Positions 1-33,638 of a stretch of DNA of 33,638 nt are shown here, piece by piece. The stretch's first letter is position 1; every line of letters begins with the position of its first letter. Source of the stretch: Clostridiaceae bacterium BRH_c20a (GTDB lineage: Bacteria > Bacillota > Peptococcia > Peptococcales > BICA1-8); assembly GCA_000961765.1 (NCBI GenBank), contig LADT01000032.1:1-33638 (forward strand), in the 5' to 3' direction. The position numbers and the translations under genes were made by a program. The notes beneath the pieces are model-generated. The model was not told the DNA's origin, did not search any database, and worked only from the letters and a program-made list of their open reading frames with translations.

Positions 1-109
1 CTTCATTTATCCATTTGCATGGATAAATGCGTCTATTCGTCTTACTTATACTGCTATACAGTATGTCCGTGGGCGCGTGGGCGAGCTAAGAATAAATAAG
101 TTTCAACCA

Positions 110-137
110 AACCACCTTTACTGGGTGGTTTATTTTT
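110..137 (+). terminator. Rho-independent terminator inside each 219-bp unit
   Basis: AACCACC pairs with GGTGGTT (110-116 with 124-130), followed by a T-rich tail. It is repeated at 329-356 and 548-575, so the presumed upstream rRNA operon would end in three copies of one terminator, backed by a fourth, related one at 909-931. Confidence 0.8.
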
Positions 138-167
138 GATTTTCGCGCTCACGCGCCCACGAATAGA

Positions 168-217
168 CGGAAAGACGCTAAGTCCGCAGGGTCCTGGAAG
201 AGTAGGTCGTTGCCAGG
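168..217 (+). pseudogene. 5S rRNA 3'-end fragment, copy 1
   Basis: The segment ends in GAGTAGGTCGTTGCCAGG, the usual 3' end of Bacillota 5S rRNA (loop E/helix IV return and helix I 3' strand). No 5' half of 5S lies in the unit, so this cannot be a functional gene. It is the boundary segment of the tandem duplication. Confidence 0.72.
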
Positions 218-386
218 AACTTCATTTATCCATTTGCATGGATAAATGCGTCTATTCGTCTTACTTATACTGCTATACAGTATGTCCGTGGGCGCGTGGG
301 CGAGCTAAGAATAAATAAGTTTCAACCAAACCACCTTTACTGGGTGGTTTATTTTTGATTTTCGCGCTCACGCGCCCACGAATAGA

Positions 387-436
387 CGGAAAGACGCTAA
401 GTCCGCAGGGTCCTGGAAGAGTAGGTCGTTGCCAGG
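387..436 (+). pseudogene. 5S rRNA 3'-end fragment, copy 2
   Basis: Identical to the fragment at 168-217, one 219-bp period later. It has no matching 5' half of 5S rRNA. Confidence 0.72.
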
Positions 437-605
437 AACTTCATTTATCCATTTGCATGGATAAATGCGTCTATTCGTCTTACTTATACTGCTATACAGT
501 ATGTCCGTGGGCGCGTGGGCGAGCTAAGAATAAATAAGTTTCAACCAAACCACCTTTACTGGGTGGTTTATTTTTGATTTTCGCGCTCACGCGCCCACGA
601 ATAGA

Positions 606-655
606 CGGAAAGACGCTAAGTCCGCAGGGTCCTGGAAGAGTAGGTCGTTGCCAGG
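606..655 (+). pseudogene. 5S rRNA 3'-end fragment, copy 3
   Basis: Third identical 5S tail, ending the tandem array. Downstream sequence diverges right after the CCAGGAACTT end. Confidence 0.72.
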
Positions 656-679
656 AACTTTTTCTTATACTGCTAGACT

Positions 680-3691: not shown

Positions 3692-3818
3692 CAAGTAGTT
3701 TGATTGATTTAGGTTTTTAAATTTAAGTCCAAAGTATATAGATATGTGGGTAGTCCTGGGAGAAATCTCAAGGATTTTTCTATAACTTAAGATATGGTAT
3801 TTATATTATGGTAAAATG

Positions 3819-3827
3819 TGGTACAAT
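3819..3827 (+). promoter_or_regulatory. Extended -10 promoter for the MNT-HEPN gene
   Basis: TGGTACAAT is a TGn extension plus a good -10 box. Transcription would start near 3834, downstream of the first in-frame ATG (3808), which supports the later GTG start at 3886. Confidence 0.5.
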
Positions 3828-3885
3828 GGCTTTGAGTAGCGTAGAGTTTGGAAGATTTATTGTTGTATTTGAAAGGGTGAAATGT

Positions 3886-4653
3886 GTGGCTGAAAGATAT
3901 GGATTATCTAAGGAAGATTTTTATAATATATTAGATTTGTTTAAAAAGTATTCAGATATAGTTGCCAAGGTTATTATTTTTGGTTCTAGAGCAAGGGGAG
4001 ATTATAAAAAAAACTCAGATATTGATATGGCGATAGTTTTTAAAAAAGATAATTATAAGATTTATGAGATAATAGAGGAGTTAGAAACTAAAAATATTAT
4101 ATATACATTCGATATTATAGATTTTGATAAAATATCTAATGAAAAGTTACGTAGTTATATAATAAATGAAGGAAAAGTAATTTTTTTATCTAATGAAAAA
4201 GGGGAGATGCTTGTGACATTAAATAAGGTAATGGATAAGCTTGAAAATTTCAAAAATGCATATAATAAGCTAACTGAAAGTTTAAATAGGGATTTCCTTG
4301 AAGACGATATTGTAATAGATGCCGCCATAAAAAGATTTGAGTTTACATATGAACTATCTTGGAAGCTGATGAAATCATATCTTGAATATACGGGTAGCTT
4401 TGAAAGTACTAATCCGAGAAATACAATAAAGACAGCCTTTAAAGAGGGATTAATATTAGATGGTGATATATGGTTAAAAATGATTGTCGACAGGAATAAA
4501 ACGGCTCATACATATGATGAAAAAAATGCATTGGAAGTTTTAAAAAATACTAAAGATATATATGTTCCTTTATTTAAAAATCTTATTTCTAAGATTGAAG
4601 ATGAATTACGTGACCAAGGGGACAGTCCCCTTGGTCACGATTCGATCATTTAA
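3886..4653 (+). CDS. MNT nucleotidyltransferase-HEPN ribonuclease fusion (toxin-antitoxin in one chain)
   Basis: The N-terminal MNT domain has GSRARGDYKKNSDID (GSX10DXD, residues 33-47) and the third acid in FDIIDF (about 76). The C-terminal HI0074-type HEPN domain (about 110-250) has RFEFTYELSWK and RNKTAHTY (203-210), the RX4HXY motif that holds the RNase residues and the tyrosine adenylylated in characterised MntA/HepT pairs. Both halves look intact, so toxin and antitoxin are one polypeptide of 255 residues. The GTG start is chosen for AGGGTG six bases before it and the -10 box at 3822. A second well-placed ribosome site, GGGGAG, precedes an in-frame GTG at 4213 exactly at the domain boundary, so HEPN may also be made alone (146 residues). 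The last residues are encoded by a palindromic repeat. Confidence 0.88.
   Translation: MAERYGLSKEDFYNILDLFKKYSDIVAKVIIFGSRARGDYKKNSDIDMAIVFKKDNYKIYEIIEELETKNIIYTFDIIDFDKISNEKLRSYIINEGKVIFLSNEKGEMLVTLNKVMDKLENFKNAYNKLTESLNRDFLEDDIVIDAAIKRFEFTYELSWKLMKSYLEYTGSFESTNPRNTIKTAFKEGLILDGDIWLKMIVDRNKTAHTYDEKNALEVLKNTKDIYVPLFKNLISKIEDELRDQGDSPLGHDSII
4201..4215 (+). promoter_or_regulatory. Internal ribosome-binding site and GTG start at the MNT/HEPN boundary
   Basis: AAAGGGGAG, six bases, then GTG 4213 in the frame of the fusion. Spacing and strength match genuine starts elsewhere in the window. Translation from here would give a free HEPN protein of normal family length. Confidence 0.5.
4609..4639. 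repeat. Perfect 14-bp palindrome within the end of the MNT-HEPN gene
   Basis: Arms 4609-4622 and 4626-4639 are perfect inverted repeats around CAG, with core GGGGACAGTCCCC flanked by TGACCAA and TTGGTCA. Similar palindromes are dispersed in many clostridial genomes. Here the element is translated, giving the tail residues RDQGDSPLGH, and probably doubles as a terminator-like hairpin. Confidence 0.85.
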
Positions 4654-6014: not shown

Positions 6015-6039
6015 TTATGCGACCTCCGTGTTCTATTTC

Positions 6040-6330
6040 TTATGGGTTGAGCTGTTGCGTCTGACAATTGCTTCAGGGACAATTTATTGCGTCTGACTTT
6101 TTCGTGGGTTAAGCTATTACGTCTGACAATTACTTTGGGGTTACTTATTGCGTCTGATATACTCCTGGGTGAAACTCTTGCGTCTGCTAAATCAGACACT
6201 AGATGTTAACCAAGCAGTATATCAGACCCATTATTCTTACTATCAACGTTTGTGTCAGACGCAAAACTTTTCTTAGAAGTAATTGTCAGAACAACAATAT
6301 TCACCTTGCAGTAATGTCAGACTCATAATG
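6040..6330. repeat. Inverted array of GCGTCTGAC units (family A, locus 1)
   Basis: GCGTCTGAC or a close variant starts at 6057, 6089, 6119, 6150 and 6180 (spacings 32, 30, 31, 30). Past a centre near 6200-6240 the reverse complement GTCAGAC(GC) appears at about 6254, 6283 and 6314. Sequence between cores is also related (AATTACT, GGGTTAAGCT). The whole is one long imperfect palindrome directly upstream of gapA. Confidence 0.85.
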
Positions 6331-6600
6331 CTCGCCCATAAGTATGTGAAGTAAAGCGACTAGGAAGTATTCTCCATTTGTGTTAGAAATCCTTGTCATA
6401 ATCGATAAACCATTCTTATATATGAGTATTTATTACGGGATTTGTGCTGACCAAATGGGACAAAAAGCGTCCCTGTTTTTAGGGGACTTATTATATATAT
6501 TTCAAGAAGGGAAAATTGTTAATGCTAAAATAAGGAAAGTATTATAGAATAATATATAAATGATTTCTGTATGAAATTCTTAACAGGTTGTTGTATACTA
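6331..6600. other. Intergenic region with no gene recognised
   Basis: Nothing coding was recognised. GGGAC (6457-6461) can pair with GTCCC (6469-6473) before TGTTTTT, a weak terminator-like hairpin with no + strand gene upstream of it. Confidence 0.4.
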
Positions 6601-6615
6601 AATACAGGGGAAGAT

Positions 6616-6720
6616 AGGTTAAGGTTAAGGTTAAGGTTAAGGTTAAGGCTAAGGCTGAGGTTGAGATTGAGATTAAGATTAAGATTAAGATTAAGATTAA
6701 GATTTCGCTGCGCTAGATTA
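6616..6720. repeat. Hexanucleotide array GTTAAG/GATTAAG with CGCTGCGCTAGA tail
   Basis: About fifteen degenerate 6-bp units (GTTAAG drifting through GCTGAG to ATTAAG) end in TTCGCTGCGCTAGATTA. The same array type with the same tail occurs at 19688-19795. Open frames across it read as alternating Leu-Arg or Asn-Leu and are artefacts. Confidence 0.9.
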
Positions 6721-6765
6721 GACCATAGACCAGACAAGAGACAAAAGACGATTGGACATAAACTT

Positions 6766-6842
6766 AGACCATAGACCATAGACCATAGACCATAGACCAT
6801 AGACCATAGACCATCGACCATCGACCATAGACCATCGACGAT
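6766..6842. repeat. Heptanucleotide array AGACCAT
   Basis: Eleven 7-bp units: seven AGACCAT, two CGACCAT, one AGACCAT and one CGACGAT, ending about 55 bases before the oadA-like start. Confidence 0.93.
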
Positions 6843-19687: not shown

Positions 19688-19795
19688 GGTTGAGGTTAAG
19701 GCTGAGGCTGAGGTTGAGGTTGAGGTTAAGGTTAAGGTTGAGGTTAAGGCTAAGGTTGAGGTTAAGATTAAGATTGCGCTGCGCTGGATTGAGAG
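19688..19795. repeat. Hexanucleotide array inside the Tad operon
   Basis: About fourteen degenerate GTTGAG/GTTAAG/GCTGAG units end in GATTGCGCTGCGCTGGATT, matching the array and tail at 6616-6720. It fills the gap between the TadG-like gene and cpaB. Confidence 0.9.
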
Positions 19796-19829: not shown

Positions 19830-20540
19830 ATGCGTAATAAGCTGGTTATTATTTTGGCAATAGTTTTTGGCTTGACAACAGCCTTTATGGTTTTAAATTA
19901 TTTGCAAGAAGTGAAGAAGGCAATGGATGATAATGATTACGTTGAAATTGCAGTAGCTAATCAGGATATCCCTGTTAATACCATAGTTTCAAATACAATG
20001 GTTGGAATGAAGAAAATACCTTCTCAATATATGCATCCACAGGAGTTTACTGATAAGGATCAAGTAGTAGGGAAAATAGCTCTAGCACCTATTGTTGTGG
20101 GGGAAGGTTTTATGAAAAATAGATTACTTGAACAAGGAGATAAGAAGGAAGGTCTAGCTTATCTAATACCTAAAGGCAAAAGGGCCTTAACAATACCCGT
20201 GGATGAAGTGAGTGGTATTAATGGATTAATAAAGCCGGGCGATCACGTAGATATTATTAGTACTGTTACTATTGGGGAACTGGAGCAAAAGACTTACACC
20301 CTGATTGTCTTGCAGGATATTGAGGTTTTAGCGGTCGGAAAAAATATTGGGAAAAGTGAAAATCTAGCAAATACAGAAGAGACAAATACTGCAACATTAG
20401 CTGTTACCTTAGCTGAAGCAAAACCTTTAATGATGGCAAATCAGAGGGGGGTAATTCGTTTAATGCTTAGATCACCAATTGATGAAAGTAAAGGTTATTC
20501 ACCACCATTTACAATGGAAGAGCTTCTTACACAAAATTAA
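19830..20540 (+). CDS. cpaB: Flp pilus assembly protein CpaB/RcpC
   Basis: The 236-residue protein has an N-terminal membrane anchor (about 4-22), an SAF-type domain (about 38-100, AVANQDIPVNTIVSNTMV) and the CpaB region with KGKRALTIPVDEVSGINGLI KPGDHVDII. CpaB acts in the extracytoplasmic part of the pilus machine. In Gram-negatives it works with the secretin CpaC, which is absent here as expected for a monoderm. AGAGGTGACAAG precedes the ATG. It is flanked on both sides by repeat arrays. Confidence 0.92.
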   Translation: MRNKLVIILAIVFGLTTAFMVLNYLQEVKKAMDDNDYVEIAVANQDIPVNTIVSNTMVGMKKIPSQYMHPQEFTDKDQVVGKIALAPIVVGEGFMKNRLLEQGDKKEGLAYLIPKGKRALTIPVDEVSGINGLIKPGDHVDIISTVTIGELEQKTYTLIVLQDIEVLAVGKNIGKSENLANTEETNTATLAVTLAEAKPLMMANQRGVIRLMLRSPIDESKGYSPPFTMEELLTQN

Positions 20541-20569
20541 TACTTGCGGGTGACATCTACTTAGGGGCT

Positions 20570-20905
20570 GGGATTATGGGTCTGACAATACTTAAGGGTA
20601 AATATTACGCGTCTGACAATTGCTTAAAGGTCTAGCTTGAGCGTCTGACAATACTAATGGGTTGAGCTTGAGCGTCTGACAAATACTCATTGGTTGAGCT
20701 TGAGTGTCTGACAAATACTCATAGGTTGAGCTATTGCGTCTGCTTAAAACATCGGCCGCCAAAGCTTGTGTCAGACGCAACATGTTCACCCAGAAGATAG
20801 TGTCAGACGCAACAAATTGACCGAGAAGTATTGTCGGGCGCAAAAAGTAGCCTAGAAGTAAATGTCAGACGCAATAGCTAGACGGAGAAGTATACCAATT
20901 AATAA
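20570..20905. repeat. Inverted array of GCGTCTGAC units (family A, locus 2)
   Basis: GTCTGAC starts at 20580, 20611, 20643, 20674, 20706 and (GTCTGCT) 20738: spacings 31, 32, 31, 32, 32. Past a centre at about 20745-20765, its reverse complement starts at 20770, 20802, 20833 (one base changed) and 20864. Units also share AATACT.AT.GGTTGAGCT. It separates cpaB from cpaE. This is the clearest copy of the family. Confidence 0.92.
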
Positions 20906-20931: not shown

Positions 20932-22155
20932 ATGGAGAAGATTAAAGTTCTGATTGTTGATGATATTTCAGAAACACGGGATAATATAAATCGACTGCTT
21001 AAATTAGAAGAGCATATTCAGGTAGTGGGTGAAGCGTCAAATGGGGAACAAGCAATTAAGAAAGCAGAGCAGCTTTTACCTGATGTAATATTGATGGATA
21101 TTAATATGCCCATAATGGATGGAATGGCAGCAACAGAAAAAATATCTTTAAGCTTGCCTAATATCGCCGTTATTATGATAAGTGTGCAAGGTGAAGCGGG
21201 GTATTTAAAGAAAGCAATGATGGCAGGAGCAAGGGAATATTTGGTTAAGCCCTTTAGTGCTGATGAGCTAGTTGATGCAATTAAGCGGACATATGATTTG
21301 GAAAAAAAACGACTAGGAAAGCTGGAGGGCTCAAAAAGGATATTCGGCAAACCAAAGGATAATAAGCCCCAGGTAATTACTATATTTGGAACTAAGGGTG
21401 GAGTGGGCAAGACTACTCTGTCCGTAAATATTTCCGCGCAATTAGCTAAAAAAACTAAGAAAAAGGTTGTCTTGGTAGATTTGGATTTGCAGTTTGGTGA
21501 TGTATCGGTTTTTTTTAATGTGAGCCCTAAAAAGAGTATTGCAGAACTTGTTCAGGAAAGAAGTCAATTAACAATAGATTTGGTGGAAAGCTATTTAATT
21601 CCCCATATCTCAGGTGTTAAAATATTACCTGCCCCAATGAGACCGGAGTATTCAGAATTGGTTACTCCTAATAATATTTTAGAAATTTTAACAATATTAC
21701 GTCAAAATTATGATTACGTAATTATTGATACTCCTCCCTTTTTTCAAGATACAAATTTAAGTGCCCTTGATATGTCAAATCAGGTACTTCTAATTATGAC
21801 TATGGATTTACCTACTGTTAAGAATATGAAACTGAGTCTTGAACTATTAGACACATTGCATCATAAAGAAAAAACAAAGCTAATACTAAATAGGGCTTCT
21901 GAAGATTTAGGTATCAATGCTGCTGATGTGGAAAATGCCTTGGATTTTTTGATTTCGCACCAAATCCCCAGTGATGGCAAGCTTGTTGTAACATCTGTAA
22001 ATAAGGGAATACCTTTCGTCCTTAGCAATTCAAATGCCAAGGTAAGTAAAGCGGTAGACAATATTACAAATATAGTTATTGAAGACACTGGCTATCAGAA
22101 AGAATTATTGGAAAGTAGACAGCGCAAGAAGCTATTTGGTAAATTGTTTGGATAG
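20932..22155 (+). CDS. cpaE: CpaE/TadZ-like protein: receiver domain fused to a MinD-type ATPase
   Basis: Residues 1-120 are a complete response-regulator receiver: acidic pair VDD (10-11), Asp56 in ILMDINMP, switch Ser84 in MISVQG and Lys106 in YLVKPFS. Residues 145-407 are a ParA/MinD-like ATPase with the deviant Walker A TKGGVGKTT (about 154-162) and LVDLDLQFGD. CpaE/TadZ proteins position the Tad machine in the cell. In well-known CpaE proteins the receiver-like part has lost phosphorylation residues; here the set is intact, so phosphorylation, perhaps via the nearby DegS-like kinase, is possible. ATG 20932 follows GGGGGGAAAGCC; a longer frame from TTG 20911 has no better site. Confidence 0.93.
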   Translation: MEKIKVLIVDDISETRDNINRLLKLEEHIQVVGEASNGEQAIKKAEQLLPDVILMDINMPIMDGMAATEKISLSLPNIAVIMISVQGEAGYLKKAMMAGAREYLVKPFSADELVDAIKRTYDLEKKRLGKLEGSKRIFGKPKDNKPQVITIFGTKGGVGKTTLSVNISAQLAKKTKKKVVLVDLDLQFGDVSVFFNVSPKKSIAELVQERSQLTIDLVESYLIPHISGVKILPAPMRPEYSELVTPNNILEILTILRQNYDYVIIDTPPFFQDTNLSALDMSNQVLLIMTMDLPTVKNMKLSLELLDTLHHKEKTKLILNRASEDLGINAADVENALDFLISHQIPSDGKLVVTSVNKGIPFVLSNSNAKVSKAVDNITNIVIEDTGYQKELLESRQRKKLFGKLFG

Positions 22156-28589: not shown

Positions 28590-28611
28590 AAAGATATTTC
28601 TATTGGGATGG

Positions 28612-28725
28612 AATTTTGGGTCTGACAATTACTAAAGAGGCATTTAATTGCGTCTGACAATTACTAAAGAGGCATTTTATTGCGTCTGACAGTACTTTTG
28701 TGTGAACATATTGCGTCTGACCCAA
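28612..28725 (+). repeat. One-armed GCGTCTGAC array (family A, locus 3)
   Basis: GTCTGAC starts at 28620, 28652, 28684 and 28715 (spacings 32, 32, 31). The first two intervals are nearly identical (AATTACTAAAGAGGCATTT). All units face one way, opening with GGGTCTGAC and closing with GTCTGACCC. Confidence 0.92.
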
Positions 28726-28766
28726 GCATTGCATGTCATTGCTATGAAAGCTACTGATTCAGCTAT

Positions 28767-28844
28767 GTCATCCTGAGGGAGGAACGACCGAAGGATCTTA
28801 AGCTTCTTCACTACGTAAGATCCTTCGCTATCGCTCAGGATGAC
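28767..28844. repeat. Dispersed-type palindrome with GTCATCCTGAG ends
   Basis: GTCATCCTGAG (28767-28777) pairs with CTCAGGATGAC (28834-28844), and CGAAGGATCTTA (28789-28800) with TAAGATCCTTCG (28816-28827). This GTCATCCTGAG...GAAGGATCTT palindrome recurs in many unrelated bacterial genomes. A second common dispersed motif, GTCATTGCGAG, is at about 28908. Confidence 0.85.
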
Positions 28845-29024
28845 GGGAATGCTTTAGTTTATAGTGGTGTGGTCAATACGTGTTAATTATAAATAGATCC
28901 CTGCCTGTCATTGCGAGTGCTAGTGAAGCAACCTGGCTTAATGTTTTTCTGTAGAACTGTAGCACCTTAGCCTTAATCTAACGGAATGCAATGAAGTGGA
29001 ATCTTAATCTAGCGAAGCGAAACC

Positions 29025-33373: not shown

Positions 33374-33638
33374 TATTATTGGAGAGTTTGATCCTGGCTC
33401 AGGACGAACGCTGGCGGCATGCCTAACACATGCAAGTCGAACGAAACGGAGGTCGGTCATCAGAGGTCAGAAGTCAGATTGAGCTAACATTAATAGCTTC
33501 TAAAATATCTAATTCTGACATCCGATTTCTGACGACTGACTTCCGTTTAGTGGCGGACGGGTGAGTAACGCGTGGGTAACCTGCCCATAAGACTGGGATA
33601 ACACCGGGAAACCGGTGCTAATACCGGATACGTTCTTT
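33374..33638 (+). rRNA. rrs: 16S ribosomal RNA (5' part, runs off the window)
   Basis: GGAGAGTTTGATCCTGGCTC and AGGACGAACGCTGGCGG mark the 5' end, followed by the conserved CACATGCAAGTCGAACG and GGCGGACGGGTGAGTAACGC G. The exact 5' base is estimated from other Bacillota. The V1 region (helix 6) between about 33449 and 33547 is about 70 bases longer than usual: 33444-33483 pairs with 33511-33547 to make an extended imperfect stem. The rest of the visible sequence looks like a normal functional gene. This is a partial gene, about the first sixth. Confidence 0.97.
33449..33547 (+). repeat. Heptanucleotide-repeat extension of 16S V1
   Basis: The 5' arm reads in 7-base steps GAGGTCG, GTCATCA, GAGGTCA, GAAGTCA, GATTGAG (33449-33483). 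The 3' arm reads TTCTGAC, ATCCGAT, TTCTGAC, GACTGAC, TTCCGTT (33513-33547). The arms pair with each other, many changes being G-U compatible. Confidence 0.82.

Follow-up and report, generated by a model that had tools for sequence, protein, structure and literature searches.

The window analyzed here, i.e., the whole 33,638-nucleotide stretch, carries a two-armed array of short tandem repeats between cpaB and cpaE, together with two further arrays of the same kind. In the following list, G003 designates the closest genome from another genus.

19830–20540, forward strand: cpaB, upstream gene (open reading frame); its stop codon at 20540 adjoins the array, and the G003 orthologue and its gap are known
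20541–20557, forward strand: degenerate first module, shortened internally, TACTTGCGGGTGACATC, abutting the cpaB stop codon (sequence reading, core-like match at 20546)
20558–20745, forward strand: left (forward) arm, six 30-bp modules at 20558, 20589, 20621, 20652, 20684, and 20716 (PSSM scores 26–36)
20746–20768, no strand: 23-bp loop, with an H-type inner end on its left (GCGTCTGCTTAAAACATC...) and a C-type one on its right (GCTTGTGTCAGACGC)
20769–20892, reverse strand: right (reverse) arm, four modules at 20769, 20801, 20832 (degenerate), and 20863 (PSSM)
20932–22155, forward strand: cpaE, downstream gene with an N-terminal receiver domain (open reading frame; CpaE 88% identical in G003)
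6037–6344, no strand: another two-armed member of this repeat family, lying upstream of the GAPDH gene; the PSSM detected five modules in forward and four in reverse orientation, the one at 6190 being doubtful
28598–28722, forward strand: one-armed array, four modules terminating in the C-type inner end, with CAGTGCC-type heptamers ahead of them (repeat finder, PSSM)

Sequence reading, repeat finders, and a PSSM built from the module copies of the source genome itself all identified six forward and four reverse GTCTGAC cores between cpaB and cpaE, as a first-pass annotation of this DNA had described at 31- or 32-bp spacing. These cores are part of 30-bp modules (TACTTNNGGGTNNANNTNTTGCGTCTGACA) separated by linkers of 0–3 nt (window 20558–20892), with start-to-start distances of 31, 32, 31, 32, and 32 bp, a 53-bp step across the loop, and then 32, 31, and 31 bp. 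While that annotation considered only 9–15 bases per unit to be tightly kept, the conserved unit extends over ~30 bp and includes C3, T4, G9, G10, A13, A14, and T17 besides the core. It was correct in excluding a CRISPR: these are regular direct repeats as in CRISPRs, but they adjoin each other without spacers and form two opposed arms. Within the window, GCGTCTGAC with at most one mismatch was found 19 times, compared to 1.56 expected from shuffling. The heptamer GTCNGAC is its own reverse complement, and GTC-N-GAC is the only self-complementary portion of the module consensus.

The same modules are dispersed throughout the source genome (G000; 4.5 Mb assembly, 92 contigs), in which exact GCGTCTGAC occurs 218 times versus 4 for a reversed control, and CGTCTGAC pairs at the array spacing occur 76 times versus 0. 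The genome-wide excess of 31–32 bp spacing that the first pass had proposed to look for is thus very strong. Overall, G000 contains ~70 arrays, including 59 in the loci fetched (288 module occurrences; 22 two-armed and 37 one-armed arrays), although these array counts are slightly inflated because the ends of contigs C4 and C19 apparently hold one split array, and C29 and C56 the same array. Across four genera, all 39 arm junctions in two-armed arrays were convergent and none divergent. Two-armed arrays in G000 fill their intergenic gaps, the median distance being 0 bp on the side of the upstream stop codon and 21 bp on the side of the start codon, and at one locus (L076) the outer module provides the stop codon of the upstream gene. 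No description of this repeat was found in the literature searched, and among viral contigs, 86 pattern matches were obtained, none of which included two PSSM modules among those scanned.

In two-armed arrays, the two arms usually differ at their inner ends: the H end consists of GCGTCTGATAAAATC followed by CCCAGTG-type heptamers, and the C end of GCGTCTGACACAAGC. Module subtypes are distributed along the same lines, with a GAA subtype abundant in H arms (43/86) and a TNTAG subtype abundant in C arms (35/83). One-armed arrays mostly display a C inner end, often with heptamers outside and other intergenic repeats further out. Several heptamer families, of the 6–7 bp repeat kind, recur around one-armed arrays; in the window, intergenic runs of such repeats (AGGTTA, TAGACCA, GGTTGA) are also found at 6616–6839 and 19688–19776.

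Next, we evaluated the spacing of modules along arms. In G000, spacings were mostly 30 (15%), 31 (40%), or 32 bp (40%), with a mean of 31.35 and a standard deviation of 0.91 (n = 213), and the mean in G003, computed from the spacing histogram, was ~30.7. Adjacent cores remain close to three helical turns apart, and this near-three-turn spacing is found in G000, G003, G004, and G001. Successive spacings in G000 were uncorrelated (lag-1 r = −0.05, p = 0.6), and spacing variance rose roughly linearly over up to five steps; without compensation between steps, the register of the cores is thus lost along the arm. The proposal that every core would lie on one DNA face therefore does not hold for whole arms, but does approximately for neighboring modules.

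The repeat family is limited to one GTDB family, within which it was detected in all five genera sampled, with cores differing between genera and widely varying copy number. Model R1 yielded 138 matches in G000, 94 in G003, and 50 in G004, and none in 41 class members outside the GTDB family, while model R2, searched in 26 genomes, yielded 102 matches in G001, 5 in G002, and two weak ones outside the family (G021, best E 0.003). Divergence between G000 and G003 is high: across seven gene pairs, fourfold degenerate sites are 36% identical over 844 sites, i.e., saturated. Where the orthologous G003 gap was found, an array or remnant was kept for eight of nine two-armed arrays, compared to only one of nine one-armed arrays (Fisher p ~0.003, hand arithmetic). 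One-armed arrays thus look recent, as the eight other sites are empty in G003. In G003, only a remnant of the cpaB–cpaE array itself is left (L298), and the corresponding gap in G002 spans only 28 bp; this and the empty G003 gaps are too diverged for alignment to the base.

Individual gaps illustrate both retention and loss or gain of arrays. G004 carries arrays in the glyA, tktB, mraW, DUF881, and alaS gaps, and the alr gap is occupied in G000, G003, and G001, in the latter with a G001-type core. No array is present in the glyA gap of G001 or G002, nor in the rapZ gap of G004, G001, or G002, the latter gap being occupied in G000. The comparison of orthologous gaps suggested in the first pass thus gave a divided answer: genera differ by gains and losses of units, whose spacing is nonetheless regular rather than random. 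In three genera, arrays were also observed to separate an aminoacyl-tRNA synthetase gene from the T-box or T-box-like terminator ahead of it (L064, L328, L343), namely after a T-box leader and before ileS in G001 (Rfam match), and after a T-box-like terminator and before alaS in G000 and G004.

At each of its positions, the module shows the same profile in G000, G003, and G004, although the G003 and G004 modules were gathered with the G000 matrix, which biases the comparison towards agreement. This agreement in three genera despite synonymous saturation supports the selection on the module that had been proposed from the first sequence reading. At module position 26, T is present in 94% of modules in G000, 69% in G003, and 65% in G004, and A in 1%, 25%, and 32%, respectively; because of the G000 matrix used for collection, the A fractions in G003 and G004 are probably underestimates. 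In G001, position 26 is A in 80% of modules, and the core is GGTCAGA instead of the GCGTCTGAC of G000. By eye, related 30-bp periodic arrays that have TTGTCAGA as their core and differ in the middle part could be recognized in G002 (L400:1230–1390, L347:1270–1370), and these TTGTCAGA-core arrays are scarcely detected by R1 or R2.

Modules are also duplicated and shared. Duplicated blocks include 95-bp blocks at L055, repeated blocks at L047, and identical 32-bp units at L064, and near-identical modules (two mismatches) in different arrays form 79 pairs, compared to 2–4 under an independent-position null, an excess due in part to the array split across contigs C4 and C19. Conservation of the core could partly stem from recopying between arrays instead of selection for binding, which we consider a real alternative.

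We then compared these arrays to known repeat and transposon systems. BOX elements of Streptococcus pneumoniae (125 elements, 422 modules) combine three unlike modules in the order boxA-(boxB)n-boxC, with a tandemly variable middle module and one element in a composite with T-boxes; compared within one species, they are over-represented between convergent genes, and such small interspersed repeats are usually seen as slow one-species parasites (PMC3049150). The arrays described here are likewise small, interspersed, modular, and lineage-restricted, with tandem variation and T-box association, but they repeat a single module type in a pair of arms that converge, do not follow the boxA-(boxB)n-boxC order, match background gene orientation, and persist between genera. 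REP/BIME/REPIN sequences, mobilized by RAYT (Y1) transposases, share the hundreds of short intergenic copies, both orientations, and regular spacing, and include protein-binding sites (PMC2817692, PMC3116915); REPs, however, are palindromes that alternate in orientation, whereas the 30-bp module described here is non-palindromic, and its orientation strictly follows the arm. With regard to the terminal inverted repeats of MITEs, the arms of two-armed arrays are inverted and built from the same module, but they are only ~52–54% alike at variable positions, and other arrays are one-armed. The ends of Tn7 and CAST elements are formed by repeated, equally oriented TnsB sites, face each other, and are unlike each other (e.g., PMC10201428), an arrangement that resembles the two unlike, facing arms of same-orientation units seen here; the arrays differ from these ends in having a short loop and no cargo.

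No transposase could be identified for the arrays among the Tn7-like element and Y1 loci examined. A complete-looking Tn7-like tnsA-tnsB-tnsC-tniQ set lies beside glmS in G000 (L381:6634–12999, contig C36; Mu-transpos_C match), the side of glmS being the classic Tn7 site. There is no module near its transposition genes, the nearest array being located ~3 kb beyond tnsA, past glmS, and arrays are found in G001 and G004 without any Mu-transpos_C match, so that we rejected Tn7-type ends as an origin. Y1 transposase genes number 19 in G000, one each in G001, G003, and G004, and none in G002; an array adjoined none of the 11 Y1 loci scanned, which makes a RAYT/REP system less likely. We also asked whether pairs of one-armed arrays might delimit larger elements, but the pair on contig C26 flanks ordinary acyl-CoA/etf genes without a transposase.

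Taken together, these observations lead us to favor, with a probability of about 0.5, an old BOX/MITE-like non-autonomous interspersed family, whose modules would be protein-binding sites; the arrays would be inherited at their positions, with an ongoing exchange of modules between them. In a full element, tandem 30-bp modules form two arms that converge on a polar loop, and the whole occupies the space separating a stop codon from the Shine-Dalgarno sequence of the next gene. Each module would then provide one of a series of side-by-side sites, about three helical turns apart, for a putative sequence-specific protein, which could be a mobilizing protein or else a host factor by which the sites were co-opted. 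The specificity of this protein may have drifted along with the core (from GCGTCTGAC to GGTCAGA), aided by module exchange between arrays, and one-armed arrays may represent the more recently dispersed fraction. The two possibilities raised in the first pass, a protein–DNA role or an unusual copying mechanism, thus both gained support as candidates. The architecture, the distribution within the GTDB family, the persistence of arrays in given gaps across genera, the turnover of modules, the occurrence of shared module types in different arrays, and the retention of the core despite saturated neutral sites are demonstrated by the data, while a binding protein, a way of spreading, and a function for the host are features that we infer.

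Several other explanations can be considered. Arrays are located between co-directional genes, immediately before the Shine-Dalgarno sequence, and in some cases follow a T-box (ileS, G001) or T-box-like terminator (alaS, G000 and G004), all of which would suit an operon-internal RNA element in which the long imperfect hairpin of a transcribed array controls the processing, stability, or relative expression of its neighbors, like intercistronic REP/BIME. Such a hairpin, also suggested in the first pass, is physically possible: the predicted minimum free energy (MFE) of the cpaB–cpaE array is −129 kcal/mol, far lower than the −77 kcal/mol obtained with the right arm flipped. Signs of selection for pairing were nevertheless not observed, as mirror modules were no more complementary (0.537 alike) than non-mirror (0.523) or unrelated ones (0.543), and native arms, evaluated from two inner modules per arm, formed weaker duplexes (−52.1 kcal/mol) than chimeras (−58.8 kcal/mol). 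The latter difference mainly reflects arms of different subtypes, and is not significant when only H–C chimeras are considered (−53.4 versus −56.1 kcal/mol, p = 0.07). We thus rejected a selected RNA hairpin, and likewise an RNA polarity, since H-to-C order is unbiased relative to transcription (9 against 6). Arms are moreover often very unequal in module number (7/1, 1/5), one-armed arrays are present in both orientations, and a hairpin alone would not require an identical core at every locus. In Rfam, the cpaB–cpaE array had no match at the gathering score, and nine other sources matched T-box and TwoAYGGAY RNA only, both outside the arrays. Overall, we regard control by an RNA element as unlikely, at around one chance in a handful.

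Binding could alternatively be architectural, with a nucleoid or segregation protein using the three-turn spacing, as the conserved bipartite module and the recurrence of this spacing in four genera might suggest; given the loss of register along arms and the very different copy number between genera, we consider this somewhat less probable still. A comparably low likelihood may be assigned to a parasitic repeat without host role, BOX-like and kept by its own copying, for which the core would be a requirement of the copying machinery. Lineage-specific one-armed arrays inside mosaics of other repeats, modules common to different arrays, and a frequency of two-armed arrays in co-directional gaps no higher than that expected from background gene orientation are all consistent with this explanation, yet two-armed arrays stay in the same housekeeping operon gaps across synonymously saturated genera, a persistence exceeding the expected life of decaying copies unless they are recopied.

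More speculatively, a dedicated putative protein might polymerize on convergent arrays in housekeeping operon gaps (cpaB–cpaE, mraZ–mraW, tktA–tktB, and before glyA and alaS) and exert a family-wide, operon-internal control, dozens of sites per genome having switched sequence together between genera, at least some in the same gaps; we see this as rather improbable. Since arrays hold their places and their 30-bp module across synonymously saturated genera, along with a genome-wide shift of the core, it becomes testable whether such repeats are selected protein-binding sites, and how dozens of sites shift specificity together.

Finally, the window includes other features of note. A dispersed repeat with a REP-like look (TCATCCTGAG...GATCCTTCGCTATCGCTCAGGATGA) adjoins arrays at window 28760–28850 and at L038 and L066. 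At the contig start (window 1–660), a 219-bp unit is present three times in identical form, possibly an assembly artefact, and a 16S rRNA gene (Rfam RF00177) is cut by the contig end at 33376–33638. Judging from its translation, the product encoded at 3808–4653 combines a nucleotidyltransferase-like N-terminus with a second domain, of the MNT/HEPN-pair kind.
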